A stretch of DNA of 64,000 nucleotides from Natronorubrum aibiense (GTDB taxonomy: Archaea > Halobacteriota > Halobacteria > Halobacteriales > Natrialbaceae). Both the position numbers and the translations under genes were made by a program. The notes under the pieces were generated by a model. That model was given only the letters and a program-made list of their open reading frames with translations. It did no database searches and had not been told where the DNA came from. Shown here piece by piece: positions 6,594 to 54,295 of this stretch. Where the stretch lies: assembly GCF_009392895.1 (NCBI RefSeq), contig NZ_CP045488.1, forward strand, positions 1,674,001 through 1,738,000, read 5' to 3'. Numbering within the stretch: position 1 is the stretch's first letter; each line of letters opens with the position of its first letter.

Positions 6594-6612
6594 TAGCTAT
6601 GTACTCGATATA
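6594..6612. promoter_or_regulatory. Pho-island motif, copy 2 (upstream of pstS)
   Basis: This reads TAGCTATGTACTCGATATA. It is the second direct copy in the pstS promoter region and resembles the pstB/regulator copy more closely than copy 1 does. It lies about 100 bp upstream of the pstS ATG. Confidence 0.5.
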
Positions 6613-6729
6613 CGGCCTTGTGAGCGGGAAAAAGGCCCTTTCAGAACCCGTCCTACATTGGATCCAATATATAGTTTGGTGTAGAAACCGAACAGATGCG
6701 AGTCCGATGGCACCACCACAGAGTCCGTA

Positions 6730-7407: not shown

Positions 7408-7412
7408 GGGAG

Positions 7413-8303
7413 TTACCCGAACTTGCCGGTGATGTAGTCTTCGACGCGGTCGTGTTCGGGGTTCTCGAAGATCTTGTTCGTGTCGTCGAACTCGACGAGT
7501 TCGCCGCCAGTCAGGAAGACGGCTGTCTTGTCGGAGATTCGGGCGGCCTGTTGCATGTTGTGGGTGACGATGACGACCGTATACTCCTTCGAGAGATCCT
7601 CGATCAGGTCCTCGATCTTCGAGGTTGCGACCGGGTCGAGCGCCGACGCTGGTTCGTCCATCAGGATCACTTCTGGGTCGGGCGCGATCGCGCGAGCGAT
7701 GCAGAGTCGCTGCTGTTGTCCGCCCGAGAGGTCAAGTCCGCTCGAGTCGAGTTGGTCTTCGACTTCCTCGAGCAACGCCGCACGCTCGAGTGCCGTGCGA
7801 ACCTTCTCGTCGACGTCGCCGTCGTCTTTCCCCTGCACGCGGAGGCCGTAGGCGACGTTGTCCCGGATCGACTTCGGGAACGGGTTCGGTTTCTGAAAGA
7901 CCATGCCAATCTTCCGGCGCAGGGCGACCGGATCGACGTCGTCGTCGTAGACGTTTTTACCCTGGAAGTAGAGGTCGCCGTCGACGCGTGCGACGTCGAT
8001 AAGGTCGTTCATGCGGTTGATCGACCGCAGGAACGTCGATTTCCCACAGCCAGAGGGCCCGATGAGTGCCGTCACTTGGCCCTCGGGAATCTTCATATCG
8101 ATACTCCGGAGCGCCTGATCGTCGCCGTAGTACACGTCGAGATCCCGGGACTCGAGCGCGACCGATTCCGAGTGTGATCGGTCGTCCGACTCCGAGACCA
8201 TCCGCCCATCCGTCTGGGCTCCCGCGTCCGATGAGTCGCTAGAACTGGATTGAGGCGGCTCGTGCTGTGCGTCGGTTCCCATCGAGTCCTGGTAGTATTG
8301 CAT
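7413..8303 (-). CDS. pstB: Phosphate ABC transporter ATP-binding protein PstB
   Basis: This is the cytoplasmic ATPase of the phosphate importer. Motifs appear in order: Walker [10 protein letters not shown] (near residue 83), Q-loop [12 protein letters not shown], signature LSGGQQQRL, Walker [13 protein letters not shown] and the switch His in [11 protein letters not shown]. About 50 Ser/Asp-rich residues precede the ABC domain and look disordered. ATG 8303 is chosen over TTG 8306; a downstream ATG (MGTDAQ) is another option. A TATAT stretch lies about 34 bp upstream. It is first in a two-gene operon with phoU and divergent from the AbrB-PhoU gene. Confidence 0.96.
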
Positions 8304-9861: not shown

Positions 9862-10845
9862 GTGAGTGAGTTCGCGTTCGAACTCGAGTTATGTGCCCAC
9901 CTCGAGGCTCACCGTGAGGGGCTCGTCGCCCGCCAACTCGGAGCGAGCGTCGCCGAGCCCGGCGGGCGGATTCTCGACACCGTCTGTCTCGAGCCCGGGC
10001 CCAACTTCGCAGATCGCCTCGAACTAACGAGTGCGTCGATTCCCGACGCCGCGATCGAATCCAACGTCGGCACTGGCCGGGCACGCTACTGGAAAGACGC
10101 TTTCGACTGTCACCCGGATCACGCCCGTCGAGCCACCGACCGGGCCTGCGAGATCGGCTTTTTCGAACGCGACCGACGAAAGGGCCGCGAGTACGTCCGG
10201 CAGGTCGCGCGCTATCCGGACTGGTACGATCGCCTCGTCGGCATCGAGAACAAACCCGACCTCGGGCGACCCGGCGACCTCGAGGCCCAGCTACGAACTG
10301 ACGTCAGCCTCGCGCTGGTCGACGAGATCGTCCTCGCGACCGAGAGCTACGTCACGCGGGCGCACCTCCACCGCATTCCCGACGAAGTCGGCGTCTGGCG
10401 CGTGCATCGCGACGCCACGGCGGACGACGACCTCGAGATCGATATCGTTCGTGAGCCGACGCCGCTGCCCGTCGACGAGTCGGGTATCGAACCCCTCGAG
10501 TACCAGCCGGGACGGACCGATATCGCCGTCGTCTCCCCCGAGGCGAAAGCCCAGCGACGGCGACGGATCGCCGAACGTGCCTACGGCAAGGGGTGGCGAA
10601 CCTACGGGTTCCCCGACTGTGGGGCTTGTCGGGCCGCCGACTCGATCGGCTCGACACTACCCTACTGCGAGCGATACGACCGCGTCGTCGACGCCAGCAC
10701 GGAATGTGGGCCGTCGTGTCCGGGCTACGAGCCCGGGGAAGTCCTGAAAGTCGATCTCGAGGACGAACGTGACCGACGAACACCGTGGGTGGCCGATCCG
10801 GCAGGCAAACGCCGCCAGCAGTCGGGATTGGATCAGTTCGGCTGA
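9862..10845 (+). CDS. DUF5787-like haloarchaeal protein of unknown function
   Basis: This soluble acidic 327-aa protein starts at GTG 9862 (VSEFAFELELCAHLEAHREG); a TTG nine codons earlier is less likely. Near the C-terminus (residues 250-295) is a cysteine cluster, GFPDCGACRAADS then PYCERY then ECGPSC. It could bind a metal or an Fe-S cluster. The first 200 residues, with ARYWKDAFDC, GREYVRQVARYPDWYD and IVLATESYVTRAH, suggest a nuclease-like or ATP-independent enzyme fold, but I cannot name it. I recall this family as DUF5787 with moderate certainty. It sits between two small mobile elements, so it borders the accessory patch. Confidence 0.7.
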   Translation: MSEFAFELELCAHLEAHREGLVARQLGASVAEPGGRILDTVCLEPGPNFADRLELTSASIPDAAIESNVGTGRARYWKDAFDCHPDHARRATDRACEIGFFERDRRKGREYVRQVARYPDWYDRLVGIENKPDLGRPGDLEAQLRTDVSLALVDEIVLATESYVTRAHLHRIPDEVGVWRVHRDATADDDLEIDIVREPTPLPVDESGIEPLEYQPGRTDIAVVSPEAKAQRRRRIAERAYGKGWRTYGFPDCGACRAADSIGSTLPYCERYDRVVDASTECGPSCPGYEPGEVLKVDLEDERDRRTPWVADPAGKRRQQSGLDQFG

Positions 10846-10884
10846 GTTCCAGTGGAAAGTGGTCTTATGTCCTTAAGTAAACAA

Positions 10885-10913
10885 CCTCGGGCGCGGTGGC
10901 CCGAGGCTTTTTT
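10885..10913. terminator. Hairpin plus T-run; also an inverted copy of the TnpB right-end hairpin
   Basis: CCTCGGG - GCGGTGG-type loop - CCCGAGG is followed by CTTTTTT, 40 bp after the DUF5787-like gene, so it could terminate that transcript. Its reverse complement closely matches the right end of the downstream TnpB element (12771-12802), including the flanking AAAAGCC and GTTTAC, so it is probably a stray transposon end co-opted or coincident as terminator. Confidence 0.55.
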
Positions 10914-10922
10914 AGAACTATG

Positions 10923-10930
10923 CTTGAAAC
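10923..10930. repeat. 8-bp target site duplication (left copy)
   Basis: CTTGAAAC directly precedes the left terminus of the 179-bp element and is repeated exactly at 11110-11117. Confidence 0.7.
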
Positions 10931-11109
10931 GGCTCTGGTGAATCACTAGACTGCGGCGACTTACCATGAAGAATCGCGTCACTCGAGGCGTCACGCTGGA
11001 ACGATCGTGACTGCATCCTCGAGAATCCGGCGGTAACGAACCAAGTGACCGATCTCAGGAAGGCAGTGAGACACTACATCCCGACGCTGTATGGCGATTC
11101 ACCAAAGCC
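10931..11109. mobile_element. Non-autonomous element (MITE), 179 bp
   Basis: It begins GGCTCTGGTGAATC and ends GATTCACCAAAGCC, a 14-bp terminal inverted repeat with one mismatch. It is bracketed by a perfect 8-bp direct repeat CTTGAAAC. The interior has no transposase frame. Duplications of 8 bp are known for ISH1-like IS5-family elements, so mobilisation in trans by such a transposase is plausible. The intact duplication suggests a fairly recent insertion. Confidence 0.7.
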
Positions 11110-11117
11110 CTTGAAAC
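11110..11117. repeat. 8-bp target site duplication (right copy)
   Basis: CTTGAAAC immediately follows the right terminus of the 179-bp element and is identical to the left copy. Confidence 0.7.
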
Positions 11118-11291
11118 TGAATAGGGCAGTTCGAGCGTGTCATACAATGGTTCTCAACAGCCATTATCCGCTGTCTCTCTCTTGAACAAAACCTACGACT
11201 GGCGAGATTTACAGAATACACATGAATGCGAGCTGTATAATCGCTAGGTAGAGGTGGTGAGACGTATTCTATAATAAAAGCAGGCAGAGTA

Positions 11292-11313
11292 CCCCGGGCC
11301 ACCGTGCCCGGGG
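11292..11313. repeat. Left-end hairpin of the first TnpB element
   Basis: CCCCGGGCC-ACCG-TGCCCGGGG type palindrome lies 85 bp before tnpB. It shares the GGGCCACCG loop with the right-end hairpin at 12775-12796, as expected for subterminal hairpins of an IS200/IS605-superfamily transposon. Confidence 0.6.
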
Positions 11314-11398
11314 GTGAATGCCGTCGACTTAATGAGCAACCCACGTCGCGCTGGTGCGTGGTTTTAACTTGAATTGGTCTGATGAGTTAGATGTAACG

Positions 11399-12754
11399 AT
11401 GGATGAGCTTGTTGAGACGCTACGTTTCCGCCTCCACATAGAGAGTGGGGAGCGCTGGCGTCTCAAACAGGCTCGGTTCGACGCTCGGCCCATCGCTAAT
11501 CACACCTGGGCAATGCGTGAACTCGGATACAGTAAGACCGAGATTGCAAAGCAAGTCATGCCGACCGAGAATGACTTCGTGAAAAATAACGCACAAGCCG
11601 TTGTGTGGAAAGCTTGTGACGCTTACGACGCGTACGAAAGTGCGTTGAAGAAGTGGCGTAACAGCGACAACCGCGACGAGTTACCGAAGCCACAGCCGCC
11701 GTCGACTGATTCATGGGGAGCGTTCCCGCTCGTTATGAACCACGGCGAAGGATACGAACTGCAAGTTCGTGACGACAACCGTGTTGGCTATCGCATCAGT
11801 GCCCAGCCATACAAGGAGAAGGTACGTGGGTTTCTTCGCGGGGCAAAACAGGATCTTGATCGCGTCAAGCATGCGCTAGATTCCGCGAGTGATTTAGAGG
11901 TGGGTCGGGCTGAGGTTGTGTATCGAGAGGGCGTGTACTACCTACACGTCCCGATACGACACCCCATCACAATTGACGCTGCGGAAGACGCAGAGTCAGT
12001 CATCGCCATCGACATCAACGAACGCAACATCACCACCACCGTTCTCGACCGAGAGTCGCGTGAAACGCTCGCGCAACTCGCCATCGATTACGGCCAAGTA
12101 AAGCAAAAGCGCCAGCGATACTACGACATCAAACGTCGCTGCCAGGAACACGGCAAACACAGCGAGGTTCACCGAATCGGGAACCATGTGGTGAACTTTA
12201 CTGAGTGGACGCTACACCGACTCAGCAAAGTCATCGAACACTACGTACAATGGTTCCCGAACCCGGTTGTGGTGTTTGAGTCGCTCGATGGCATTCGCAA
12301 CGACATCGACTACGGTAGCTATATGAACCGCCGATTGCACAAGCTGCCGTTCCAGGAGTTTGAACGGCAAGTCACGTACAAAGTCCACCGTCACGGCGCT
12401 CCGGTCGAGCATGTCGATTCCGAGTATAACTCACAGCGTTGCTCGATGTGTGGCGAGAAAGGCTCTCGGAACGGTGGACGGTTCACGTGCAAAAACGATA
12501 CGTGTGCTCTCAAGCAAGATCACTCGGATCGAAACGCGTCGGTGAATGCTGCGGTACGATGGATTGCGAAAACAGAGACTGGCGATGACAGTCACAGCAG
12601 CGCGGATAACTACCGACCTCGCAAAACCCCGCCTCAAGTGCGGGTGCGCCGGGTCGGGTCGGGACGCCACACCACCACCTCTTGTGGTGGCGTGGACGTA
12701 AACCGTCCAACCTCATCCCACGAGATCGCCTCACAGGGAGTGCTTCACAGCTAA
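11399..12754 (+). CDS. tnpB: TnpB-family RNA-guided nuclease, IS1341-type transposon (copy 1)
   Basis: This 451-aa protein has a helical N-terminal half and a split RuvC nuclease. The catalytic residues look complete: Asp in VIAIDINERN (about 204), Glu in VVVFESLDG (about 294) and Asp in DHSDRNASVNAA (about 377). A zinc ribbon (CSMC then CKNDTC) lies between the last two. TnpB proteins cut DNA guided by an RNA made from the transposon's right end. ATG 11399 is chosen; GTG 11354 in the same frame would add 15 residues. No tnpA is adjacent, so it is a tnpB-only element. The sequence is diverged from the second TnpB at 42031. Confidence 0.85.
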   Translation: MDELVETLRFRLHIESGERWRLKQARFDARPIANHTWAMRELGYSKTEIAKQVMPTENDFVKNNAQAVVWKACDAYDAYESALKKWRNSDNRDELPKPQPPSTDSWGAFPLVMNHGEGYELQVRDDNRVGYRISAQPYKEKVRGFLRGAKQDLDRVKHALDSASDLEVGRAEVVYREGVYYLHVPIRHPITIDAAEDAESVIAIDINERNITTTVLDRESRETLAQLAIDYGQVKQKRQRYYDIKRRCQEHGKHSEVHRIGNHVVNFTEWTLHRLSKVIEHYVQWFPNPVVVFESLDGIRNDIDYGSYMNRRLHKLPFQEFERQVTYKVHRHGAPVEHVDSEYNSQRCSMCGEKGSRNGGRFTCKNDTCALKQDHSDRNASVNAAVRWIAKTETGDDSHSSADNYRPRKTPPQVRVRRVGSGRHTTTSCGGVDVNRPTSSHEIASQGVLHS

Positions 12755-42030: not shown

Positions 42031-43293
42031 ATGGACTACAGCGCACGGTTCCGACTCCTGCCAACCACGGAGCAGCGAGAACTGTTGGGTTGGCAACGAA
42101 ACACCGTGCGCCAAGTCTACAACCACGCACTCCACCGACTCAACCAACTCCCCGAACAACCCGACAAAACCGTCCGACAACGAGTCTGGCACGTCCGCGA
42201 CGAACTCCCCACGTGGAAGGACAAGTGGCCGGAGTGGAGCAACGTGTACTCCACCGTCCTCCAAGCTGCCGTGGAGCGCATCTACCACAGCATCACCGGC
42301 CTCGCCCAACAACGTGACAACGGCCACAAAATCGGAGAGTTGAACTGGAAGAAACCACGCGAATTTCAGAGCTTCACGTACCGCCAACGCGGCTTCGAAC
42401 TCGACAGAAAGAGTGGTCGCGATGGCCGTGGACGCCTGATCCTCAAGAAAGTGCGTGGCGAGACAATTGAAATCCCGATCCGATTGCACCGAGACCTTCC
42501 AGATGACGCCGAGGTGAAACACGTCTCCGTCAAACAGGAAGCCACCGGTGCGTGGTACGCGTCGTTCAACATCGAACACAAGAACCCCGAGAAACCCGAT
42601 GTTGAGGATATTGACCCTGCGGATGCAGTGGGTCTTGACCTCGGTGTCCTGAACTTCATCCACGACTCGGACGGCCGGTCAATCGACCGTCTTGACCTGT
42701 CCGATGACCGCGAGCGACTGGAGCGCGAGCAACGCTCCCTGTCACGCAAAGAATACGAGTCAAAGAACTGGGAGCGGCAACGCCGGCGTGTTGCGGAAGT
42801 GCATATAGATATGTGGAACAAGAAGCGTGATTTCAAGCACAAGCTCGCGCATTTCTACACTCGTGAGTACGATGCCGTCTTCGTGGAAGACCTCGACGTG
42901 CGCGGGATGCTCGAAAACGGTGGGAACGCGCGAAACAAGGCGGAGGTTGGGTGGCGTGATTTCATCCGAGTTCTCAAGCATCATGGTCGAAAGCACGGGT
43001 GTCACGTGGTGGAGGTGGAACCAGCGGGGACAACGAAGGAGTGCAGTCGGTGTGGCGCGGAGACGGTGAAGCCGTTGTGGGTCAGGGAACACAGTTGTCC
43101 GTCGTGCGGCTTGGAGTTGGATCGGGATTGGAACGCGGCGCTGAACGTCTTTTCTCGAGGATTGGAGGATATAGGAGTGGTTCACTCCGAAGCAACAACG
43201 CCTGTGGAGACTGCGACCGCTGTGGACACCTATAGTGTGTCTGCAAGTCGCGTCGTCGAAGCAGGAAGCCCCTGCCTCAAGGAGGCGGCGTAA
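42031..43293 (+). CDS. tnpB: TnpB-family RNA-guided nuclease, IS1341-type transposon (copy 2)
   Basis: This 420-aa protein starts at ATG 42031 (MDYSARFRLLPTTEQRELL), the canonical OrfB_IS605 N-terminus. The RuvC catalytic set looks intact: Asp203 in VGLDLGVLNF, Glu286 in AVFVEDLDVRG and Asp366 in LDRDWNAALN. The zinc ribbon CSRCG/CPSCG lies between the last two. The last codons run into the right-end palindrome and the stop TAA sits in its loop. No tnpA is present. It is distant in sequence from copy 1 at 11399. Confidence 0.92.
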   Translation: MDYSARFRLLPTTEQRELLGWQRNTVRQVYNHALHRLNQLPEQPDKTVRQRVWHVRDELPTWKDKWPEWSNVYSTVLQAAVERIYHSITGLAQQRDNGHKIGELNWKKPREFQSFTYRQRGFELDRKSGRDGRGRLILKKVRGETIEIPIRLHRDLPDDAEVKHVSVKQEATGAWYASFNIEHKNPEKPDVEDIDPADAVGLDLGVLNFIHDSDGRSIDRLDLSDDRERLEREQRSLSRKEYESKNWERQRRRVAEVHIDMWNKKRDFKHKLAHFYTREYDAVFVEDLDVRGMLENGGNARNKAEVGWRDFIRVLKHHGRKHGCHVVEVEPAGTTKECSRCGAETVKPLWVREHSCPSCGLELDRDWNAALNVFSRGLEDIGVVHSEATTPVETATAVDTYSVSASRVVEAGSPCLKEAA

Positions 43294-43316
43294 GCCGCCG
43301 AGTAGGCAGGGGTAGT
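43200..43316 (+). ncRNA. Candidate omega/reRNA at the right end of tnpB copy 2
   Basis: A two-level stem encloses the tnpB stop: CCCCTGCCT (43269-43277) with AGGCAGGGG (43304-43312), and GGCGGC-GTAA-GCCGCC (43284-43299). This overlap of 3' coding sequence and terminal hairpin is where TnpB guide RNA is produced in characterised systems. The guide would extend to the element edge at about 43316-43319. Boundaries and expression are inferred. Confidence 0.45.
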
Positions 43317-44486
43317 TCACCGTCCGCGAGCCGCCGCAAGTGCGAGTATTCCGAGCGTGGCCGCCGTCGCCGCCGCGCCGAACACCCCACGAACGCCGAA
43401 CAGCGGGACCAGCGGCCCGAACAGCACCGGTGAGAGGAACTGACCCGTATAGCCCGCCGACGCGAGATACGAACTGAACTGGCCCTGTCGACCGGCGGGG
43501 GCGAGCGCTTCGATCCAGGCGAAGGCCGACGGAAAGACCAGCCCCAGCCCCAGCCCGAACGCGACCACCGACGGGACGGCCATCAGCGCCGACCCCGCGA
43601 CGGTCGCACCCGCGAACGCGACGATCCAGAGGCCAAGCGCCGTCGCGACGAGTGCGTGTCGACTCGTCCGTTCGACGAGCCGATCGTAGACCGCCGCCGA
43701 GACGCCGCCGGCAAGCCCGTTCGCGGCGAGATAGAGACTGATCGACAGTGAAGAGGTGATCCCTAGCCCTGCCAGCAGTTGGGGGTAAAAGACGACGATG
43801 CTGTAGAGCAGGACGTTTGCACCGAAGTACAACAGGTAGACCGACAGGAGTCCGGGACGGCGTCGAAAGATGTCGAGAACGCCTCTAACACCGCTTTTCC
43901 CGTCTGTATTCGCGCTAGTCCCCCGAATCCCCGTCTCGGGAACGGTCACGATCGCGAGCAGCCCGAGAGGGAGGGCGATCAGGTAGACGCCGAAGGGGGC
44001 CTGCCACGAGAGGGTGCCGAGCGCGCCGCCGACCAGCGGCCAGATGACCGCGCCGACGCTGTTGGCGCTGCTTCGCAATCCCAGCGCCCGCTCCATCCGT
44101 TGGCCCTCGTAGAGTTCGTAGATGAGCACCGTGATACCGGTGTAGACGAAGGCGACGCCGACGCCTAACACCGCTCTCGAGGCGAGCAGCGGGCCGAACG
44201 AGTCGACGACCAGCCCGGCCCCGCCGCCGGCCGCGTACAACAGGAGGCCAATGATAAAGGGACGACGAGGGCCGACGCGGTCGATGAGCGCCCCCGCGAT
44301 CGGGCTGACGAGAACGATGAGCGCCCCGTGAGTCGTGATGATGAGTCCGGCGTTCGACTCCGAGATCCCAAGGCTCGACTGGATCGCCGGCACGATCGGC
44401 CCGAGGATCGCCCCGGCCATCACTGTCAGCGTTGCCGATGCCAGAATTACCCACAGCGTCGCTCGTCTCTCCGATCCGGTCGTCAT
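43317..44486 (-). CDS. MFS transporter
   Basis: This 389-aa protein has 12 predicted helices, with motif A GALIDRVGPRRPFIIG between helices 2 and 3 and its second-half echo DRLVERTSRHALVA. Starts MTTGSERRATLWVIL at ATG 44486. Its TGA stop coincides with the TCA at the right boundary of the second TnpB element. Multidrug-efflux-type (DHA) or sugar-type transporters both have this shape. Substrate unknown. Confidence 0.85.
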   Translation of the reverse strand: MTTGSERRATLWVILASATLTVMAGAILGPIVPAIQSSLGISESNAGLIITTHGALIVLVSPIAGALIDRVGPRRPFIIGLLLYAAGGGAGLVVDSFGPLLASRAVLGVGVAFVYTGITVLIYELYEGQRMERALGLRSSANSVGAVIWPLVGGALGTLSWQAPFGVYLIALPLGLLAIVTVPETGIRGTSANTDGKSGVRGVLDIFRRRPGLLSVYLLYFGANVLLYSIVVFYPQLLAGLGITSSLSISLYLAANGLAGGVSAAVYDRLVERTSRHALVATALGLWIVAFAGATVAGSALMAVPSVVAFGLGLGLVFPSAFAWIEALAPAGRQGQFSSYLASAGYTGQFLSPVLFGPLVPLFGVRGVFGAAATAATLGILALAAARGR

Positions 44487-44663
44487 CGAGCCCTACTCGC
44501 GAGAGCAGCGCCAACACGGTTGTGGTTTCCGCGTCGCGTGCTCTCGGTGTCGTCAGCACCGAGATCCAAAGACGCGCGACCGATACTATCCCGACACGCG
44601 GCCGTCGTGTGGACTGCAGCGACAGTCAGTGAAGGCGGTATTCGGCCGGGATGCAACCGGGTG
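44487..44663. other. Non-coding gap between MFS gene and ccmD
   Basis: I see no credible gene. It should contain the MFS promoter on the minus strand. Confidence 0.3.
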
Positions 44664-44780
44664 TTATTGTAGATCTCGCAGTTGTCGCTCGAGGCGGTGT
44701 AACTGACGCTGCATGTAGAGGATGTACGCGAACAGCGCGATGAATATCGCACCGTAGCCGGCGAGGAGGAACGGCTCCAT
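44664..44780 (-). CDS. ccmD: CcmD-like small heme-export protein, 38 aa
   Basis: Translation from ATG 44780 gives MEPFLLAGYGAIFIALFAY, a single membrane helix, then the basic ILYMQRQLHRLERQLRDLQ. That is the CcmD pattern: one helix followed by an Arg-rich cytoplasmic tail. CcmD helps release heme-CcmE from the CcmABC complex. It starts 2 bp after the ccmC stop, giving a ccmC-ccmD operon. Confidence 0.8.
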   Translation of the reverse strand: MEPFLLAGYGAIFIALFAYILYMQRQLHRLERQLRDLQ

Positions 44781-44782
44781 CG

Positions 44783-45517
44783 TTACGCCACCTCCTCTTT
44801 CTTGAAGACGACTTTGTCCTCGAGTTCGTGCAGGCGGATACGAATCGCCATCAGGTAGATGTAGAGCAGTGCCAGTGCGAGCAACGAGATGCCGAGTGTC
44901 AGTGGGTCGATGTTCGCACTCACGTCGGGGTTTGCCACGGTCGGTTCGTGAAAGGTCGGCGTCCAGAGACGGCCAGCAGTGTAGGTGATCGGAACGGTGA
45001 TGAACGCGACCGTTCCGTAGACTGCCGCGAATCGTTCGTCGGCCCCGCGTTCGGTCGAGGCGTACACGACGAGATATCCCGCGTAGATGAACCAGACCAT
45101 GAGAAACGTGACGAGTCGAACGTCGCTCCACTCCCACCACGAGTTCCAGACGACGCGTCCCCACAGGCTTCCCGTAACGAGCGTCAGTGTTGCAAACAGG
45201 AATCCGATCTCACCGCCGCTGTGTGCGAGTCGGTTCCAGAACCGGCCCTCGTACTTGAGATAGAGCACACTCCCGACGAACGTCGCAGAGAGCGCGCCGG
45301 CAGTCAGAAATGCGAACGGAATGTGCCAGTAGGCGATGAGGTTAATTCCGTGGTCGATGCCGTACATCGTTCGGGAGGCAAATCCGAATATGAGAGTCAA
45401 CGACGTCAAACCGAGAACAAACGCGCCCCATCGAACGAACCGGCTCCACATGATCCGGTCGAACAGCGCGATGAGTGTGCCAAGTCGTCTCGAGAGTGTG
45501 CGCATATGAGCATGCAT
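44783..45517 (-). CDS. ccmC: Heme exporter/handling protein CcmC (CcsA family)
   Basis: This 244-aa protein has six helices. The tryptophan-rich periplasmic motif GRVVWNSWWEWSDVRL binds heme for CcmE, and conserved His residues flank it (YWHIPFAF, and FHEPTVANPD). The short N-terminal basic arm MHAHMRTLSRR offers a second ATG at 45505. It lies downstream of ccdA and upstream of ccmD in the same orientation, so the three may be one operon. Confidence 0.9.
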   Translation of the reverse strand: MHAHMRTLSRRLGTLIALFDRIMWSRFVRWGAFVLGLTSLTLIFGFASRTMYGIDHGINLIAYWHIPFAFLTAGALSATFVGSVLYLKYEGRFWNRLAHSGGEIGFLFATLTLVTGSLWGRVVWNSWWEWSDVRLVTFLMVWFIYAGYLVVYASTERGADERFAAVYGTVAFITVPITYTAGRLWTPTFHEPTVANPDVSANIDPLTLGISLLALALLYIYLMAIRIRLHELEDKVVFKKEEVA

Positions 45518-45548
45518 TCAACGAGTATGACTTAATTTTTTTCAACAA

Positions 45549-46235
45549 TTACTGGATGAGTGCTGCCAGCAACGCCTTGTCGAGTTCGAACAATAGTCCG
45601 ATGCCTGTCACGACGAGCGCGTACCCGCTCAGCCGTCGTACTAGCGCGGGCCGGTCGAGCGACTGTACGTGGCCGGTCAGCACACTGCCGGCCCGTTTTC
45701 CGCCGTATGCGACGACCAACAGCGGTCCGGAGAAACCGACTCCGTACGTGAAAAGTAGCGTTGCACTCTGTGTTGTCTCGCCGGACGCGCCGACGAACGC
45801 GAGCACGCTCCCGAGTACGGGTCCGACACACGGCAACCAGATGACGCCGAGAAACAGTCCGAGCACGAAGCCACCGACGAGTGGGTGATGAGACGTTTCG
45901 ATGGCGGTCGTAAACCGCGTTACCGATCCGGTAACTCGTGACGCGTACGTCGTGTACGCGGTGTGGAGATCGTCATCGGCCATCACCGCACCGAAGACGA
46001 TGATCATCGCCACGAACGGCAGCCGAAACGAATCGGGCGTCAGCGAGCCGACCAGCGCCGTGGCGATTCCGAGCACGGTAAACGACGCGATACTCCCGGC
46101 GACGATCGCAAGCGGCCGAAACCGGTGTCCGGTGCTTCCCGCGAGTAACGGGGGGATCATCGGGAGACAACACGGTGTGAGTGCAGTGAGTATCCCTGCG
46201 ACGAAAACTGCAACCAGTCCCGGCGTCTCGAGCAT
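45549..46235 (-). CDS. ccdA: CcdA-type cytochrome c biogenesis membrane protein
   Basis: This 228-aa protein has six helices and passes electrons from thioredoxin in the cytoplasm to extracytoplasmic thiol proteins. The two reactive cysteines lie in TALTPCCLPMIPPLLAG and VIWLPCVGPVLGSVLAF, the positions of CcdA/DsbD helices 1 and 4. It lies between ccmC and the diheme cytochrome gene, and its partner is likely the thioredoxin encoded at 47649. Confidence 0.9.
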   Translation of the reverse strand: MLETPGLVAVFVAGILTALTPCCLPMIPPLLAGSTGHRFRPLAIVAGSIASFTVLGIATALVGSLTPDSFRLPFVAMIIVFGAVMADDDLHTAYTTYASRVTGSVTRFTTAIETSHHPLVGGFVLGLFLGVIWLPCVGPVLGSVLAFVGASGETTQSATLLFTYGVGFSGPLLVVAYGGKRAGSVLTGHVQSLDRPALVRRLSGYALVVTGIGLLFELDKALLAALIQ

Positions 46236-46294
46236 TGATGACTCTATATTCCGAGATGGAAATAAAGAACGTGGTGAATCTTCGACGGCTTCGT

Positions 46295-47476
46295 TCAGTC
46301 GTCCGTCTCGTCGAGCGACTCTTCCCGGAGCGGCTGGTCGTACCGATCGACGTCGTCCGGGATGTCGTCCTCGCTAAGCGACTCGGTTCCCGTCGGAATG
46401 CCGGCTAACTCGAGTTTCTTCTGCATCGGGTTCATATCGTATCCGAGGTCTTCCTGCGTCCGTTCGTAGTAGACTCCCTCCTCCGGTGGACCCGTCGTCG
46501 GGAAGTCGTCTTCCTTGCCGACGAACTCGGGGCGGTCGTGGCCGTTCATGAACCCGGCGATGTCTTGGACGTCACGCCAGTCAGTCAGCGTGTGCGGTGC
46601 GCCGTACGGCATGGCCTCGCGGATGAACGCCGACGACGTGTAGATGCGGGACATTCCAGCACCGTCGTTGAACGAGTCAGGGCCCCACAGTGCTGTGGCA
46701 GTGTCCTCGATTCCCTGTCCGTCGTCACCGTGACAGGACGCACAGTTCTCGAGGTAGAGTTCCGCACCCCGGACTGGGTTGATCTCTTCGACTGGAACGC
46801 GCTCGTCACCCTCTGCTTTGTTCAGGTGTGACCAGTACGGCTGACCTTTCGTCGGCACGCCCTCGCTCAGCCACTGCATGTACGCCTCCATGGCTTGCAT
46901 CTCCCTGCTGTCGTACTCGGGTGTACCTTCCTCGGAGTCCTGGGAGTTCATACTCCGGTCGAAACAGCCCATCAACCGCTGGCGACTGTCGCGCATCCGG
47001 TCGCGCCGGCTGGTCCACTCGGGCAGGTCTGCATGGGTTCCGACGAGCGGAATCATGTTGATATCCTGGCCGACCATTCCCTGCGACATGCCGAGCTCGC
47101 TGCCGCCGTGACAGCTCGCACACGACAGTTCGTTGCCGACGTGCTCTGGGAGCTCTTCGGAAGTGTTTTCCATGATCTCGCGCCCGTAGATGACGAGTTC
47201 TCGCTCGTTTTCGTTCTCGGGAAGCGTCGACTCGTTCATCTCCTTGGGGCTGAACTGAATCTCTTCGCCGGCCGTTTCGTTCCGGTACTCGAGGTTATCT
47301 TTCGACTCGCCTTCTCGAAGATCGCCGTCCAACACGTTCCGATCCGGCCATTCTGCCGGTGCTTCTATCGGATCGCTCGTTTCGTCGTCGCTGTCATCGG
47401 GTGCTGTCGGAGCGGAACAACCGGCCAGAACGGCCAGTATGAGTACTCCTGACAGGATGAGTAATTTCCGCTTCAT
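46295..47476 (-). CDS. Diheme c-type cytochrome lipoprotein, TsdA-like
   Basis: This 393-aa exported protein has a lipobox AVLAGC (Cys20). Two heme-binding sites CASCH are at residues 119-123 and 245-249. Between them RLMGCFDRSMNS (Cys171) resembles the TsdA/SoxA heme-ligand region, and the tail has MPYGAPHTLTDWRDVQDIAGFM, as in thiosulfate dehydrogenase (tetrathionate-forming) cytochromes. It sits inside the ccm island, whose likely client it is. Thiosulfate oxidation is inferred from the family; the exact substrate is unproven. Confidence 0.85.
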   Translation of the reverse strand: MKRKLLILSGVLILAVLAGCSAPTAPDDSDDETSDPIEAPAEWPDRNVLDGDLREGESKDNLEYRNETAGEEIQFSPKEMNESTLPENENERELVIYGREIMENTSEELPEHVGNELSCASCHGGSELGMSQGMVGQDINMIPLVGTHADLPEWTSRRDRMRDSRQRLMGCFDRSMNSQDSEEGTPEYDSREMQAMEAYMQWLSEGVPTKGQPYWSHLNKAEGDERVPVEEINPVRGAELYLENCASCHGDDGQGIEDTATALWGPDSFNDGAGMSRIYTSSAFIREAMPYGAPHTLTDWRDVQDIAGFMNGHDRPEFVGKEDDFPTTGPPEEGVYYERTQEDLGYDMNPMQKKLELAGIPTGTESLSEDDIPDDVDRYDQPLREESLDETDD

Positions 47477-47648
47477 GGTCTATCAAACCCGATTTTCGAA
47501 TGCGTTCTACATAATGCACTATATGGCATATATCGCAATGACGGAAACTAATGATTAAAGATTTATGGTCAGTGGAATCTCATAGGAAAATTAGCATCCA
47601 TCGTATGGTCACGTCAAACAAACCGTTACTACTGAACCCACCGAAGCC
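47477..47648. promoter_or_regulatory. Divergent promoter of the cytochrome and thioredoxin-ccmF units
   Basis: The 172-bp AT-rich gap has CATATAGTGCATTATG about 35-45 bp upstream of the cytochrome start (minus strand) and GATTAAAGATTTATGG near 47550 in the plus direction. It therefore appears to drive both arms of the ccm island. Confidence 0.5.
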
Positions 47649-48122
47649 GTGACACCACGAAAAACCCTCACGATCGCACTTCTTATCATGGCCCTCGGGA
47701 TTGGATACTATTCGATGAATACAGCATCCGTACTGAGTGATGAATCACACACATATCATGGAGACACTGCATGGAAAACAGATGTAGACGAAGCGATGGA
47801 AACCGCTGCCGCGGAAGACAAACCGGTCCTCGTCTACTTCTGGACGACGTGGTGTACCTACTGTGAAGACTACAACAAGAACGCCTACGTCGATCCGGAC
47901 GTCAACGACCGGCTCGACGACTTCGTTCTCCTCGCGGTGAATCTCGACGATAGTAGTCCGGAGGCGAAAGATCTCCAGCAACGATACAACGCGAACTACC
48001 CGCCCCAGCACGTCGCGATCACGCCCGACGGAGAACTGTTGGTAGAAATCAATGGATACGCCGAGACGGACTCGTTCATCGCGTATCTCGACGAAGCACA
48101 ATCGGAGTGGGAGAGTCGATGA
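47649..48122 (+). CDS. Membrane-anchored thioredoxin-like protein (CcmG/ResA role)
   Basis: This 157-aa protein starts at GTG 47649. It has one N-terminal helix (residues 6-24) and a thioredoxin fold with the redox site LVYFWTTWCTYCEDYN (CTYC). It should face the outside and reduce apocytochrome c, driven by CcdA. TGA 48120-48122 overlaps the ATG of ccmF (ATGA), so translation is coupled. Confidence 0.87.
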   Translation: MTPRKTLTIALLIMALGIGYYSMNTASVLSDESHTYHGDTAWKTDVDEAMETAAAEDKPVLVYFWTTWCTYCEDYNKNAYVDPDVNDRLDDFVLLAVNLDDSSPEAKDLQQRYNANYPPQHVAITPDGELLVEINGYAETDSFIAYLDEAQSEWESR

Positions 48123-50533
48123 TCGGACCTGCGCTCATCGCCGGTTCGATGCTTACCGGACTCGTTGCGACGGTGCTCCTGTTTCGTGGCTATCTTCGCC
48201 GAGACAACGACTACGTTTCCGTCATCACACCGTTGATCGGTGTCACTGCTGGTTTGCTGGTCGTCGCACTCGGCTATCTCACGTACCAGTTCGTCGTCAC
48301 CGATTACACGAACGCGTACGTTTGGAACAACACGGCGAACTACATTCCACTCCTCTATCGTATCACCGGCGTCTACGCGGGTAACGAAGGCTCCGTTCTA
48401 TTGTGGGCAGCACTGGCCGCCGTCGTCGCCTTCTGGTCGGCTGCCCGCCGCGGAATTGCGTCGTCCGATGCGAAACTCGTGCAGGGACTGACGGTCGGGA
48501 TTGTCACGTACTTCGCGGCCATGTTGTTCTTCGATAGTCCCTTCACCTCCATTACCGAGGAGTTCCCCGAGATGGGCGAAGGGGTCGCGCCGCTCGATGG
48601 GACGGGACTCAATCCGCTTCTGATCGATCCGTACATGGCGATCCATCCTCCGGTGATGTTCATCGCCTACGCCCTTCTGACGATGCCGTTTGCCATCGCC
48701 GTTGCCCATTTCATCTCGACGATTCGTGGTAACGGAGGGCTGTTCAGCGACTGGATCGGAAGCATTACGCGCTGGCTCCGCGTCTCGTGGCTCTTTCTCA
48801 CTGCCGCGATCGTCCTCGGGTCGCTGTGGTCGTATCGAGTCCTCGGCTGGGGTGGGATCTGGGCGTGGGATCCCGTCGAGACTGCCGTGTTGATCCCGTG
48901 GATCTTCCTCACTGCGACGTTACACGCCGTGATGAACTACCGGTCACGATCGACGTACGCAACGCTTGCACCGGCGATGACGGCGACGACATTCGCTCTC
49001 GTCATCTACGCGACGGCGATCGTCAGAAGTGGCGTCTTCCGCAGCGTTCACTCGTTTGCCGACGACGGTATCGGGTTGGCGCTGCTCGTGTTGCTTGCAG
49101 CGACGACGATACTCGGCGTCTGTCTTCCGCTTGGCTACTGGCTCCTGAGAGAGCCAGCCGAGTCAGCCGACGACTCACAGCCATGGCTCACTCGAGCGAA
49201 TCTGTTACACCTCGCCGTCCTCGGTATCGGACTGCTCGGTTTCGTCTCCGTCTGGGGGCTCTCGTTCCCCGTCCTCAACAGCTACATCACGGGGATGGAA
49301 GTCGAAGTGACGGGCAACTACTACAACCTCTGGAGCTATCCAATCGTGCTCGCGATGCTGTTGCTCCTCGGGTTCTACATGGATTACGATGTCGAGGGTC
49401 GCCGCCGTGCACTGCTCTCGCTTGGCGTCTTCACGACGGCAACCGTTCTGGCTGCGCTGGTCGCGCCGACCGACTCGTGGCTGCTCGCAACGAGTGACAC
49501 GAACGATGCGCTATTCTACCAACTCATTGGCAGTGTGAGTGCTCTCTCGCTGCTCCCGCCAGCGGCGTACGTCTGTCTCACGGTCATCAATCGTGCACTC
49601 GAGTACGTTCCCGGCTCGCCGAGTCGCAACTATCAATTCAAACAGGTGGGCGTCGCGATGGTTCACATCGGATTCGTGATCCTCGTGGTTTCCGTCGCGT
49701 TCTCCTATCTGTTTACCGCGCAGTCGTCGGTGATTGTCGCCGATGCCGAACAGGAGGCAGCACTGGACGACTCCGGCGTCCACGACGTCCCAGACTCCGC
49801 TTACGCCGTCGAAGTGTCCGACTATCGTGAGTATCAGCGTCCGGAGGATCCAGACGTTCGAAACGTCGCCTTCTCGGTCGACGAAGTGACTGCTCGAGGT
49901 GATTCGATTCACGAGACGGTACAGCCTGTGTACGGAACGGTAACGGAGGTTAATCAGGGGCCGGAGGCGACGATCGTCCAACTCGACGATTCGCAGATCT
50001 GGCTCGGCGTCGTCGGCGACGGGCAGGCGGACGTTGACGTTTCCGAGGGCGATCGGGTCGTCGGCGTTGGTTACGTGATGTGGGATTACCTTCCGGAGTT
50101 ATCACAAACCGATGCGGTCGTCGTCACCGACCCGGCGGACATCGGTACGATGACGAACCCACCTGCTGCGCTCGATCAGACGCGCGTTCAGGGCAGTGCC
50201 GTCGGACTCACCGTCTACGAGGGTGGTGAACGGCTCGCCAGCGGCGAAGCCGGCCAGGAGCGCTACCTCCAGCAGGACGGAATGGAGGTCAGAAACGTCT
50301 TCGTCGATCGTGGACTGGCCCACGACACGTACGTCATCGCAGCGGTCGACGACGGAACCGCCTCACTGACGATTCGGCAGATTCCACTGATGAATCTCAT
50401 GCGCATTAGTACCGGCGTATTGCTCGCAGGAATGTTGGTTATCATCCTTTTCGATCCGGCCTACGGGCTCGTTCGCGCATGGTCACGTCGAACCGAACAG
50501 CCAACCACCACCGAAACGCCATCCGACGACTAA
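48119..50533 (+). CDS. ccmF: Heme lyase subunit CcmF
   Basis: This 804-aa protein has about 15 helices. The heme-binding WWD-type motif is GWGGIWAWDPVETAVLIPW (near residue 245), and the conserved region YAGNEGSVLLWA also fits. The C-terminal extracytoplasmic domain (residues 540-740) is a beta-rich region as in CcmF. ATG 48119 overlaps the thioredoxin stop. It ligates heme to CxxCH of the cytochrome. Length is above the bacterial 650 aa, mostly from the C-terminal domain. Confidence 0.93.
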   Translation: MIGPALIAGSMLTGLVATVLLFRGYLRRDNDYVSVITPLIGVTAGLLVVALGYLTYQFVVTDYTNAYVWNNTANYIPLLYRITGVYAGNEGSVLLWAALAAVVAFWSAARRGIASSDAKLVQGLTVGIVTYFAAMLFFDSPFTSITEEFPEMGEGVAPLDGTGLNPLLIDPYMAIHPPVMFIAYALLTMPFAIAVAHFISTIRGNGGLFSDWIGSITRWLRVSWLFLTAAIVLGSLWSYRVLGWGGIWAWDPVETAVLIPWIFLTATLHAVMNYRSRSTYATLAPAMTATTFALVIYATAIVRSGVFRSVHSFADDGIGLALLVLLAATTILGVCLPLGYWLLREPAESADDSQPWLTRANLLHLAVLGIGLLGFVSVWGLSFPVLNSYITGMEVEVTGNYYNLWSYPIVLAMLLLLGFYMDYDVEGRRRALLSLGVFTTATVLAALVAPTDSWLLATSDTNDALFYQLIGSVSALSLLPPAAYVCLTVINRALEYVPGSPSRNYQFKQVGVAMVHIGFVILVVSVAFSYLFTAQSSVIVADAEQEAALDDSGVHDVPDSAYAVEVSDYREYQRPEDPDVRNVAFSVDEVTARGDSIHETVQPVYGTVTEVNQGPEATIVQLDDSQIWLGVVGDGQADVDVSEGDRVVGVGYVMWDYLPELSQTDAVVVTDPADIGTMTNPPAALDQTRVQGSAVGLTVYEGGERLASGEAGQERYLQQDGMEVRNVFVDRGLAHDTYVIAAVDDGTASLTIRQIPLMNLMRISTGVLLAGMLVIILFDPAYGLVRAWSRRTEQPTTTETPSDD

Positions 50534-50536
50534 TAC

Positions 50537-51727
50537 ATGTCACACAAACATACATTTGTTACAGTACTCGCATCGCTTGCACTCATCGCACTCGTCTCGA
50601 TCGCGCTGGTTCCCGGCGCTGTCGCCGAGGAGTCGTATTCCGGCACCGTGACCGTCGCAGACGGCTCCGCGGAGGGAGACAACATTACCATTACGCCGCT
50701 CGATGCGGGGTACAACGCAGTCGATGATCCAACCGAGACGACCATCGAGAACGGCTCGTTCAGCTACGAGCGGGCCGACAACGCGTCAGTGTACTTCATC
50801 AAACTCGAGCACGCCGGTGCAGCTCACTACGAACTCGTCACCGACGGTCAGGAGCCGACGATTACCCTGAACGAAACGGCAACCGGAACGCTCGTCGACG
50901 AGGACGGCGATCCAGTCTCGAACGCGACCATCAACGTCACGAGCGAGCACGGGCCGCCGGTCGATCAGCTGACGGTCGATGACGGCTCGTTTACCCTCGA
51001 GCCACTCCAGCCCGATCGAACGTATCCGATTCGTATCGAAGCGAACGGCGCTGTCTACGAGCGGACGCTCTCGACCGGAGATGGATCCGTCGACGCCACG
51101 TACGAGCTTCCGGAGCCGACTGCCGACCGGGACGTGTTACACCTCGGCGGTGGACAGCCCGTGAACCACCTGCTGCGGGTCGGACCCACCCAGAACGGGT
51201 CGGGACTGTTCGTCGTCGAAACCGTCTCGCTCGAGAACAGTGCAGACCGCCCCTACGCCGGTCCTGTCGAGTTTGCGGTGCCGTCGGATGCCGAAGTCGT
51301 CACGGGAATGGTTCAAGAGGAGCGTACTGAAGTCACCGTCGAGAACGGAACGGCAACGGTCGACGCCTCGATCGATGCCGGCGAGAAGGCTGATGTTTCG
51401 GTCTTCTACCGGCTCGAAGACCAAGAACTCGAGAAACCGGTCGGATACGACGTCGAGCAGTTTGCCATCTCGTTTGTCGAGTACGACCTGAGTCAGGTCG
51501 AGTTCTCGGATAACCTCGTCGAAGCGGACGCGCCGATGCCAATGGTGATGAACACCAACGCCCTCGAAGCGGACGAACGGATCGCTGTGAGCATCGATGA
51601 GCGCGGGGCGGTCGCCGGCGACGAACGGGGAGACGACTCGCAGGGCGATGAGCTACCTGTCGGGCTCTTGAGCGCTGCGTTCGTCGGAATCGTGGTCGTA
51701 GGACTGCTCGCGTACCGACGGCTGTAG
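50537..51727 (+). CDS. Secreted, C-terminally anchored protein of the ccm island
   Basis: This 396-aa protein has a signal peptide (TFVTVLASLALIALVSIALV then VPGAVAEE) and a C-terminal anchor PVGLLSAAFVGIVVVGLLA followed by YRRL. The exterior part has repeated beta domains of carboxypeptidase-regulatory type (TGTLVDEDGDPVSNATINV) and a segment GQPVNHLLRVGPTQNG. It lacks Cys, so it is not CcmH. It starts 3 bp after ccmF, which places it where ccmH/I sits in bacteria. A chaperone or scaffold role is inferred only. Confidence 0.7.
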   Translation: MSHKHTFVTVLASLALIALVSIALVPGAVAEESYSGTVTVADGSAEGDNITITPLDAGYNAVDDPTETTIENGSFSYERADNASVYFIKLEHAGAAHYELVTDGQEPTITLNETATGTLVDEDGDPVSNATINVTSEHGPPVDQLTVDDGSFTLEPLQPDRTYPIRIEANGAVYERTLSTGDGSVDATYELPEPTADRDVLHLGGGQPVNHLLRVGPTQNGSGLFVVETVSLENSADRPYAGPVEFAVPSDAEVVTGMVQEERTEVTVENGTATVDASIDAGEKADVSVFYRLEDQELEKPVGYDVEQFAISFVEYDLSQVEFSDNLVEADAPMPMVMNTNALEADERIAVSIDERGAVAGDERGDDSQGDELPVGLLSAAFVGIVVVGLLAYRRL

Positions 51728-51740
51728 TTACAGAATATCG

Positions 51741-51776
51741 AGGAGAAAGCCCACGACTTCAGTCGTGTGGAGGATG
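51741..51776. mobile_element. Solitary IS200/IS605-type right end
   Basis: GGAGAAAGC precedes the hairpin CACGACT-TC-AGTCGTG (51752-51767), then GGAGGATG and TCA. The AGGATG-TCA junction is identical to that of the decayed element at 33909-33917. No left end or transposase is seen. It lies between convergent genes and could also act as a transcription barrier. Confidence 0.55.
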
Positions 51777-52463
51777 TCAACGTTCGACCACGTATTCGAA
51801 CGTCACTAATCCGGTGAGAAACAGCAGTCCATCGTACACGAGCAAAAGTTGAAGCCACTGCCACGTCACATAGCCCTCCGTAAGCACACGCGTGAGTTCG
51901 ACACCGGCGAGCAACACGGGAACGACGAGCGGCACGAGCAAGAGGGGTAACAGGAGTTCGCGAAGCCGAGCCCGGGCGGTCATCGTCGCGATGAGGACGC
52001 CGGTCGACGTGAATCCGAACGCAGCCAGCACGAAGACCACCAGCAGTATCGGAACGACGTCGAGTGGGACCGTAAACTCGAGGAAAATGACGGTACAGAC
52101 GAACGTGATGACCGCAACGGCCGTCGTAAAGACGGTGTTGCTCAGCACTTTTCCGACGTAGATCGCCGATCGGTCGACGGGCAACAGGAGAAGGCCGTCG
52201 AGTCCCGCGTCGGCTGTCTCTGCCGTTGCGCTCTGGCTGACGCCGAAGGTCCCCGCGAAGATGAACGCGATCCAGAGCGCGCCGCTTCCGACGACGCCGA
52301 CGTCCGTGAACGATCGGGCGAAACTGAACGCGAAGATGACGACGACCAGCAACGCGAACACGACCGCCGTGTTGAGTACCTGCTTCGAGCGCAACTCGAT
52401 GAGCAGGTCCTTGCGGATGACCTCGAGCACGACGCGGGTGTACTTGCGGAGGCCGTCGATCAT
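51777..52463 (-). CDS. ccmB: Heme ABC exporter permease CcmB
   Basis: This 228-aa protein has six helices. It starts MIDGLRKYTRVVLEVIRKDL and has ELRSKQVLNTAVVFALLVVV and TAETADAGLDGLLLLPVDRS, the CcmB cytoplasmic coupling region. It acts with CcmA and CcmC to load heme on CcmE. Its ATG overlaps the ccmA stop by 4 bp. The TGA stop lies at the edge of the transposon right-end remnant. Confidence 0.92.
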   Translation of the reverse strand: MIDGLRKYTRVVLEVIRKDLLIELRSKQVLNTAVVFALLVVVIFAFSFARSFTDVGVVGSGALWIAFIFAGTFGVSQSATAETADAGLDGLLLLPVDRSAIYVGKVLSNTVFTTAVAVITFVCTVIFLEFTVPLDVVPILLVVFVLAAFGFTSTGVLIATMTARARLRELLLPLLLVPLVVPVLLAGVELTRVLTEGYVTWQWLQLLLVYDGLLFLTGLVTFEYVVER

Positions 52464-53164
52464 CGTGGTGTAGCCGGGTCTGTTGTGCGCCGGTAGATGG
52501 TCTCGAGTTCGTCCGTCGTCGAATCTTCGATTCGAACGTCACGCGAAACGGTGCCGTCGACGAGCACGAGAGCGCGATCACAGTCGGTAGCGCCCCGTGT
52601 TAAGTCGTGGGTCGCGAGCACGACCGTTCGGTCGTCGAACTGGTCGAGAATCCGTTGCAGATCCGCAGCCGAGCGCTGATCTAGCCCGGCATAGGGTTCG
52701 TCGAGCAACAACACTGTCGGATCGTGTAACACTGCGCGAGCGATGGCGAGTCGCTTTGTCATCCCGTGGGAGAACGTTTCGACGCGCGTCGACGCTTGCG
52801 TCCGGAGATTGACTTGCTCGAGGACTTCCTCGACGCGGTCGGTACTGACGCCTCGGAGGCGCGCGTGGAGACGGAGGTTTTCACGGGCAGTGAGGGTGCC
52901 GTACAGCATCGGTCGGTGGCCCATGACACCGAGATTTCGTCGGACGCGCGTCGCATCGGGTGTTACGTCGTGTCCACCGATCCGAATAGAGCCGTCGCTC
53001 GGGAACGAAAGCGTGGCTAGCATCTGCATCAGCGTCGTTTTGCCGGCGCCGTTCGGACCGAACAGTCCGACGTGTTCGCCTGATTCGACGGTGAAGCTGA
53101 CGTCGCGGACGGCGACCGTCGAACCGAGTCGCTTCGTGACTCCCTCAGCGGTAATCGATGCCAT
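52460..53164 (-). CDS. ccmA: Heme ABC exporter ATPase CcmA
   Basis: This 234-aa ABC protein has Walker A FGPNGAGKTTLMQML (near residue 38), the signature ETFSHGMTKRLAIARA and Walker B VLLLDEPYAGLD. ATG 53164 (MASITAEGVTKRLGSTVAV) is the proper start; a longer frame is antisense noise. It lies 4 bp after the ccmE stop. CcmA uses ATP to release heme-CcmE from CcmC/D. Confidence 0.93.
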   Translation of the reverse strand: MASITAEGVTKRLGSTVAVRDVSFTVESGEHVGLFGPNGAGKTTLMQMLATLSFPSDGSIRIGGHDVTPDATRVRRNLGVMGHRPMLYGTLTARENLRLHARLRGVSTDRVEEVLEQVNLRTQASTRVETFSHGMTKRLAIARAVLHDPTVLLLDEPYAGLDQRSAADLQRILDQFDDRTVVLATHDLTRGATDCDRALVLVDGTVSRDVRIEDSTTDELETIYRRTTDPATPR

Positions 53165-53168
53165 CGGT

Positions 53169-53549
53169 TTAGGCGTGTTCTTCGGGTGGGTCGCCGTCTT
53201 CGTCGTCGTGGGCCCTGACCGAGAGTTCGGTCGCCTGAAGTGTCCCATCCTCGACGGCTCCTTTCGCGACGACGATCCGGTTTTCGGCCATCGTTTCGGG
53301 CATCGTGCCCTCGTAGACAACATCAACCGACGTGTTATTGTCCGAGACGGAGAATCTGATCTCCTCGCCCGTCTGTTCGATGTCAGTCGCTTGGCCCTCG
53401 AGATTAACCCATTCGCCCTCGTACTCGCCGTCGTCAACAGCCGTTGGTGTAACGAACTCTGCGGACGCGTTCATCACCGTCACTCCTAGGGTGCCGAGGA
53501 GCAATAGAATCCCGACGCCGACGAAGAGGAGCTTGTTCCGTCGTTTCAC
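53169..53549 (-). CDS. ccmE: Heme chaperone CcmE
   Basis: This 126-aa protein starts at GTG 53549 (VKRRNKLLFVGVG), with one membrane helix and an OB-fold domain. The fold landmarks VDDGEYEGEWVNLEGQATDI, IRFSVSDNN and VVYEGTMPETMAENR are seen. The heme-binding His should be that of RAHDDEDGDPPEE, aligned with bacterial KHDENYTPPE; the usual Tyr four residues on is missing. It leads the ccmEAB operon, preceded by an AT-rich promoter with TTTATAAAT near 53589. Confidence 0.88.
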   Translation of the reverse strand: MKRRNKLLFVGVGILLLLGTLGVTVMNASAEFVTPTAVDDGEYEGEWVNLEGQATDIEQTGEEIRFSVSDNNTSVDVVYEGTMPETMAENRIVVAKGAVEDGTLQATELSVRAHDDEDGDPPEEHA

Positions 53550-53758
53550 ATCACAGTATCGAGAATAAGAATAGTTGAATCTTTTGTGTTTATAAATGTG
53601 GATCGCGACGATCAGTCCGAGACGGGATCGGGGTCGAACGGTGAAGACGATCACTCGAGCGGAGGAGCGAACGCTGTACGACGAACGGCGACTCGACTAC
53701 CGTTGGTCGCTGCCGTGTCGGATCCGACGGAATCTCGTACGTGCCGCCAAACCCAGCG

Positions 53759-54070
53759 TTACGCCGACGGCCCGGAGTCGGCAACCCCGCGAGCGCTCTC
53801 GAGTCCGACCGTGACCGACTCGAGTGAGATGTCGATGCCGTCGTCGGCCCGTTCGACGACGACGGTATAGCCCGCATACTCGAATGAAAGGGAGGATACG
53901 CCGTTGGTGGGCGTACAGAGCGAGTCGAGTGCTTCGGGATCGACCGCGTCATAGAGCGGCTCGAGTTCGAGTGGATCGGTGTCGGTGACCGTTGCGACAA
54001 GAGAGACGACGGCCATGCTCGGCCGTTGTTCATCTGCAGCCGTCACTGTCATCGAGTGCTGAGCGTCCAT
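53759..54070 (-). CDS. HalOD1 output-domain protein
   Basis: This 103-aa protein starts at ATG 54070 (MDAQHSMTVTAADEQRPS). Its core MAVVSLVATVTDTDPLELEP, then LYDAVDPEALDSL and YAGYTVVVERADDGIDI is the haloarchaeal output domain HalOD1. Such proteins are stand-alone partners of two-component-like signalling. No sensor is adjacent. Confidence 0.83.
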   Translation of the reverse strand: MDAQHSMTVTAADEQRPSMAVVSLVATVTDTDPLELEPLYDAVDPEALDSLCTPTNGVSSLSFEYAGYTVVVERADDGIDISLESVTVGLESARGVADSGPSA

Positions 54071-54295
54071 TACTGAGGTCGTCGACACCAGAAGTAAAGA
54101 AAATACCCCAATATTTCGCCCCGAGTCGGACACAGAAAATCACAGTTCGATTTCGTGTGATATCGTTCGTGCTGGCTCCTGCTATTGGATATTTGTGATA
54201 GAGTACGCCTGCAGCGATGGGGGCTAGTATTGTACGACTCGTTCAGAACGCTATCGATACCCAGCGAGCGACGCTCGCTCGGCTTCGAAGCACCC

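Follow-up and report, generated by a model that had tools for sequence, protein, structure and literature searches.

The minus-strand gene at positions 46295-47476 of the window, the whole 64-kb stretch of DNA analysed here, encodes a protein that, judged by its sequence, is a genuine relative of thiosulfate dehydrogenase (TsdA), and it lies within an island of cytochrome c maturation (ccm) genes. The feature is genuine and far exceeds anything chance would produce. We favour the reading that this haloarchaeal TsdA is a lipoprotein on the outer face of the membrane that oxidizes thiosulfate, that the neighboring Ccm system serves this one client, and that the 9-kb cassette acts as a unit gained by horizontal transfer; we assign these statements a joint probability of roughly 0.78. 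Family membership by sequence, conserved residues, the linkage to Ccm and the presence or absence of the block are shown directly.

The ORF spans exactly 46295-47476 and yields a 393-residue diheme cytochrome c lipoprotein. The initial annotation had placed two CASCH sites and a Cys within RLMGCFDRSMNS here, giving no strand. These elements are borne out on the minus strand, with the heme sites at residues 119-123 and 245-249 and the Cys at residue 171. A lipobox, LAVLAGC with Cys20, can be read from the N-terminal sequence. Pfam detects Cytochrom_C in two stretches (6.5e-14) and SoxA-TsdA_cyt-c (1.4e-9), both exceeding their curated cut-offs. Phmmer identifies Allochromatium vinosum TsdA (PDB 4v2k/4wq7) as the best solved relative, with an E-value of 2.6e-37 over residues 92-324; the C-terminal tail, from about residue 325 onward, falls outside the match. 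Haloarchaeal orthologs with 52-97% identity to the window protein were found in 25 further genomes.

For the residue test, the window protein and 34 haloarchaeal ORFs (some redundant) were aligned with the A. vinosum enzyme; row L029 was excluded from the tree, and residue conservation refers to the remaining haloarchaeal rows. Identity to A. vinosum TsdA is about 40% over 211 residues. Taking residue roles from published work (PMC4423706, PMC6879331, PMC5146829), Cys171 aligns with Cys96 (Cys123 of the precursor), the distal ligand of heme 1. Arg157, Arg167, and Ser175 correspond to the thiosulfate-binding residues Arg109, Arg119, and Ser127, Gly274 to the thiosulfate-binding Gly221, and Arg277 to Arg224, while Met289 takes the place of heme-2 Met209 (Met255 in Campylobacter jejuni TsdA). 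All of these are kept in the haloarchaeal rows. Arg119 is invariant in TsdA (PMC4423706), and the heme-2 Met is strictly conserved in the family (PMC5146829). With the Cys of RLMGCFDRSMNS falling on the catalytic heme-1 ligand and the thiosulfate-binding residues retained, the TsdA-like character first proposed for this gene is supported. The predicted ligands are His123/Cys171 for heme 1 and His249/Met289 for heme 2. AlphaFold2 run on an eight-row haloarchaeal alignment gave a mean pLDDT of 31.8, so this assignment is taken solely from the alignment to crystal structures.

The haloarchaeal TsdAs form a single clade with support of 100/100, separate from the bacterial proteins, in a tree with long branches and a bacterial sample drawn from plasmids only. 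The haloarchaeal clade is itself a long branch, which would fit a diheme cytochrome that has lost TsdA catalysis and now serves electron transfer only, or acts on another sulfur substrate such as sulfite or an organic thiosulfonate. Our literature search found no assay for a haloarchaeal member, and to our knowledge no biochemistry has been described for this group. However, Cys171, Arg157, Arg167, Ser175, Gly274, and Arg277 are kept across the clade at 52-97% identity, a pattern that selection for the TsdA reaction would produce, and we judge a loss of catalysis to be improbable. The shared Pfam domain and a match to TIGR04484 (1.5e-9) also raise the prospect of a SoxA-like protein belonging to the Sox thiosulfate-oxidizing system. 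At 37.5 bits, this match stays far short of the curated cut-off (110), and SoxY (PF13501) is absent from the strain's own genome (G000), from Natronorubrum thiooxidans (G329) and from G370, a carrier in another genus. Furthermore, the protein has the layout of a two-heme TsdA and keeps the TsdA-only Ser127, which is invariant in TsdA and missing from SoxA (PMC4423706). Membership in SoxA was rejected on the score and the missing SoxY, and we give it almost no credence.

The sole departure among the tested residues is at position 208, where the Lys of A. vinosum is replaced by Ala288; Ala is found in nearly all haloarchaeal rows. The position is Asn in C. jejuni TsdA (PMC5146829) and, in our alignment, is not Lys in several plasmid-borne bacterial relatives. 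Lys208 is a feature of the A. vinosum type and not of the whole family. The Ala predicts a constant His/Met heme 2 resembling that of C. jejuni in place of the A. vinosum Lys/Met switch, and this prediction also suits the main rival to our reading, in which the same enzyme runs in reverse as a tetrathionate reductase, disposing of electrons under anaerobic or microaerobic conditions as C. jejuni TsdA does. TsdA enzymes are bidirectional, and the C. jejuni enzyme, likewise devoid of Lys208, serves as a reductase (PMC5146829). Nevertheless, replacement of that Asn by Lys failed to turn CjTsdA into an oxidase (PMC5146829), and since the position varies among bacterial TsdA relatives, several of which also lack the Lys, this residue cannot decide the direction. 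The closest characterized phenotype, that of N. thiooxidans, is thiosulfate oxidation to tetrathionate, as the title of the 2005 report has it. By analogy with this organism we infer that the window enzyme works as an oxidase, and we consider the reductive direction unlikely.

Overall, the haloarchaeal protein resembles A. vinosum TsdA (PDB 4v2k, 4wq7-4wqe) in its two cytochrome c domains, the His/Cys heme 1, and the His and Met of heme 2. It differs in the lipoprotein anchor, the C-terminal tail, and the Ala for Lys208, as well as in the placement of its gene inside a dedicated ccm cassette and in its expected operation at very high salt. Compared by published description (PMC5146829, PMC6879331), C. 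jejuni TsdA is similar in its Cys and Met ligands, in having no Lys at 208 and in a heme 2 predicted to be His/Met in all states; the haloarchaeal protein differs from it in having Ala in place of Asn254 and in the lifestyle of its host.

Table 1. Features of the ccm-tsdA island (window positions) and a candidate acceptor gene from a related locus.
Feature	Position	Strand	Remarks
ccmD-like small membrane protein, 38 aa	44664..44780	-	Adjoins ccmC; conserved in nearly all related islands
ccmC, heme handling permease	44783..45517	-	Cytochrom_C_asm; TIGR01191 is the best NCBIfam match, below cut-off
ccdA/DsbD_TM-like thiol-reductant transporter	45549..46235	-	Directly downstream of tsdA; profile match and related islands
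tsdA-like diheme cytochrome c lipoprotein	46295..47476	-	Pfam, phmmer, alignment
Thioredoxin-like exported thiol reductase, CxxC	47649..48122	+	Profile matches; divergent from tsdA
ccmF/NrfE-family heme lyase, 808 aa	48107..50533	+	Profile matches
CarboxypepD_reg-like protein	50537..51727	+	Exported, Cys-free, C-terminal membrane anchor
ccmB	51777..52463	-	Profile matches
ccmA ATPase	52460..53164	-	ORF open to 53437; start set by alignment with relatives
ccmE heme chaperone	53169..53549	-	ORF open to 53654; Pfam
Island as gain/loss unit	44581..53595	.	Block common to G370 at another locus; six genus relatives lack it at this site
Halocyanin-domain gene	L089 12017-12715		Candidate electron acceptor

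The components of the island are listed in Table 1. Along the window, ccmD, ccmC, the ccdA-like gene, and tsdA on the minus strand are followed by the thioredoxin-like gene, ccmF, and the CarboxypepD_reg-like gene on the plus strand, and then by ccmB, ccmA, and ccmE on the minus strand; this order is conserved among related islands. CcmA, B, C, E, and F are all encoded, as expected of a System I pathway. Most NCBIfam matches of the ccm genes score below the bacterial cut-offs, and Pfam CcmB and CcmE score above theirs. The Halobacterium noricense ortholog of the small membrane protein is annotated as CcmD family. CcmE retains its heme-binding His (VRAH); the aligned haloarchaeal copies lack the Tyr of the usual HxxxY motif. 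A profile scan of the island genes gave no match to CcmH, the absence of which is reported to be typical of archaea (PMC4429474). The thioredoxin-like protein probably delivers reductant to the CxxCH of the apocytochrome. Neither a tRNA nor sigma-70-type signals were found at the island, the sigma-70 scan being ill-suited to archaea.

The cytochrome had initially been taken for the client of the ccm island, and the genomic distribution agrees with this view. Cytochromes c of the strain's own genome were sought by family profiles, not by exhaustive CxxCH listing, and PF00034 and PF13442 match the tsdA gene alone. A possible second Ccm client in this genome, a MauG peroxidase, was discarded, as the CCP_MauG match is at chance level and contains internal stops. 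A survey of 391 Halobacteria genomes found TsdA in 26, spread over 14 of 86 genera, and CcmE in 40; TsdA is never found without CcmE (26/26 genomes; Fisher p about 9e-31, relatedness not corrected for). The two genes lie less than 8 kb apart for 26 of the 28 tsdA copies. G319 (L026, L036) and G325 (L025, L035) each have two copies of both tsdA and ccmE, apparently through duplicated cassettes.

Fourteen genomes contain CcmE and no TsdA, and in 12 of these a diheme ORF of approximately 435-516 aa sits beside the ccm genes (L063-L072, L074, L076). Three diheme clients were scanned (L063, L076, L046), and all three are CCP/MauG peroxidases. L046 is the peroxidase-type ccm island of G037, which also has a TsdA-type island 165 kb away. 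The TsdA-less ccm locus of G099 (L073) has no diheme ORF in the stretch examined, and that of G346 (L075) features multiheme ORFs instead of a diheme client. The L075 ORFs at 6329-8113 and 10646-11530 contain 8 and 4 CxxCH motifs, respectively; haloarchaea have no multiheme cytochromes as far as known, according to Kletzin 2015 (PMC4429474). The single diheme clients beside ccm loci suggest that haloarchaeal Ccm islands are mostly private lines, the window island being of the TsdA type.

The MauG-type ccm islands (Kletzin cluster 29) share with the window the same ccm gene set and an adjoining diheme client. Unlike the window island, they have a CCP/MauG peroxidase as the client and contain neither TsdA nor the CarboxypepD_reg-like gene. 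The latter is present at 25 of 25 TsdA loci, including the window, vs 0 of 14 TsdA-less ccm loci, nor was it detected at the second ccm locus of G037 (L046). The gene is therefore tied to TsdA and not to Ccm, and its product is a possible TsdA partner.

In G150 (L098), the closest relative in the genus that lacks TsdA, the sequences corresponding to window positions 43316-44535 and 53748-54165 are adjacent, approximately 470 bp apart, and the ccm-tsdA block is missing between them. In five further genus relatives the block is also missing between the same flanking genes. Of the eight genus genomes searched, two carry the cassette, and the remaining six lack it cleanly and as one block at this site. 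G370, from another genus, carries a block matching window 44581-53595 with 92% DNA identity, on a contig different from that of the flanking 6-phosphogluconate dehydrogenase gene. The G+C fraction is 0.56 in the island vs about 0.64 outside, and in H. noricense the island resides on a 369-kb plasmid.

An IS605-type OrfB/TnpB gene (Cas12f1-like_TNB, OrfB_IS605) occupies 42031-43293 on the plus strand beside the island. It is cleanly absent from the same G150 site, where 41884 joins 43316, and it finds no alignment in N. thiooxidans.

The nearest named relative of the present strain is N. thiooxidans HArc-T, in which TsdA is 96% identical and the island fully syntenic. This organism, and not the present strain, is the subject of the report by Sorokin (2005) entitled "Oxidation of thiosulfate to tetrathionate by an haloarchaeon"; the species name is attributed to Sorokin et al. 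(PMC8530250). DoxA is absent from all nine genomes checked, including N. thiooxidans and the strain's own, and a DoxDA thiosulfate:quinone oxidoreductase was rejected as the alternative enzyme. Neither of these two genomes has a second SoxA/TsdA above cut-off. A literature search, conducted without subscription journals, returned no paper linking a gene to the 2005 activity and none joining "Natronorubrum thiooxidans" or "Natrialbaceae" with TsdA. The 96% identical gene in N. thiooxidans makes the cassette a good candidate source of the gene behind the 2005 activity.

In characterized TsdA enzymes, thiosulfate binding displaces the Cys from heme 1, oxidative coupling of Cys and thiosulfate generates a cysteinyl-thiosulfate with transfer of two electrons to hemes 1 and 2, and a second thiosulfate liberates tetrathionate (PMC4423706, PMC9562282). 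With its residues conserved, the haloarchaeal protein, a two-heme enzyme that very probably converts two thiosulfates to tetrathionate and gains electrons, is likely to follow this chemistry as well. For this protein we infer heme attachment, catalysis, and the acceptor as follows. The apoprotein would be exported and anchored as a lipoprotein to the outside of the cell membrane. The CcdA/thioredoxin pair would hold it in the reduced state, and the surrounding Ccm system would add the two c-hemes. At heme 1 (His123/Cys171), thiosulfate would be bound by Arg157, Arg167, and Ser175. Cys171 would then depart from the iron to form the cysteinyl-thiosulfate, from which the second thiosulfate would free tetrathionate. 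A carrier at the outer face, probably a halocyanin, may take up the two electrons from heme 2 (His249/Met289) and feed them into the respiratory chain, so that a heterotroph would gain extra electrons without forming sulfate. In four genomes (L052/L089, L049, L050, L056) a halocyanin gene adjoins the TsdA island on its ccmD side; the 64-kb window itself contains no halocyanin match. We know of no description in bacteria of a path in which a halocyanin replaces a cytochrome as the TsdA acceptor.

Haloarchaeal TsdA homologs beside ccm genes are already known. Cluster 28 of Kletzin 2015 (PMC4429474) comprises "thiosulfate dehydrogenase homologs" from five haloarchaea, diheme proteins of 368-485 aa whose genes show an operon-like arrangement with ccm genes, and the window TsdA almost certainly belongs to the same family. 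That study compared cluster 28 with SoxA by modeling (PMC4429474), and its main text offers no residue test, demonstrated function, or link to the 2005 phenotype. The present analysis adds a test of the individual TsdA residues, a test across the class of co-occurrence and of alternative clients, the empty sites, the CarboxypepD_reg-like neighbor specific to TsdA, and a candidate gene for the 2005 activity.

These results bear on the "haloarchaea paradox" of cytochromes c (PMC4429474). Where species carry TsdA, Ccm seems to be reserved for one diheme client instead of supplying a cytochrome c-based respiratory chain. More tentatively, the cassette might be a portable lithoheterotrophy module, in which TsdA, its private cytochrome c maturation and the CarboxypepD_reg-like protein, in a docking or anchoring role, would add thiosulfate oxidation with a halocyanin acceptor to an otherwise cytochrome c-free archaeon. 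The cassette also offers a specific candidate gene for the thiosulfate-to-tetrathionate activity reported from a haloarchaeon in 2005.
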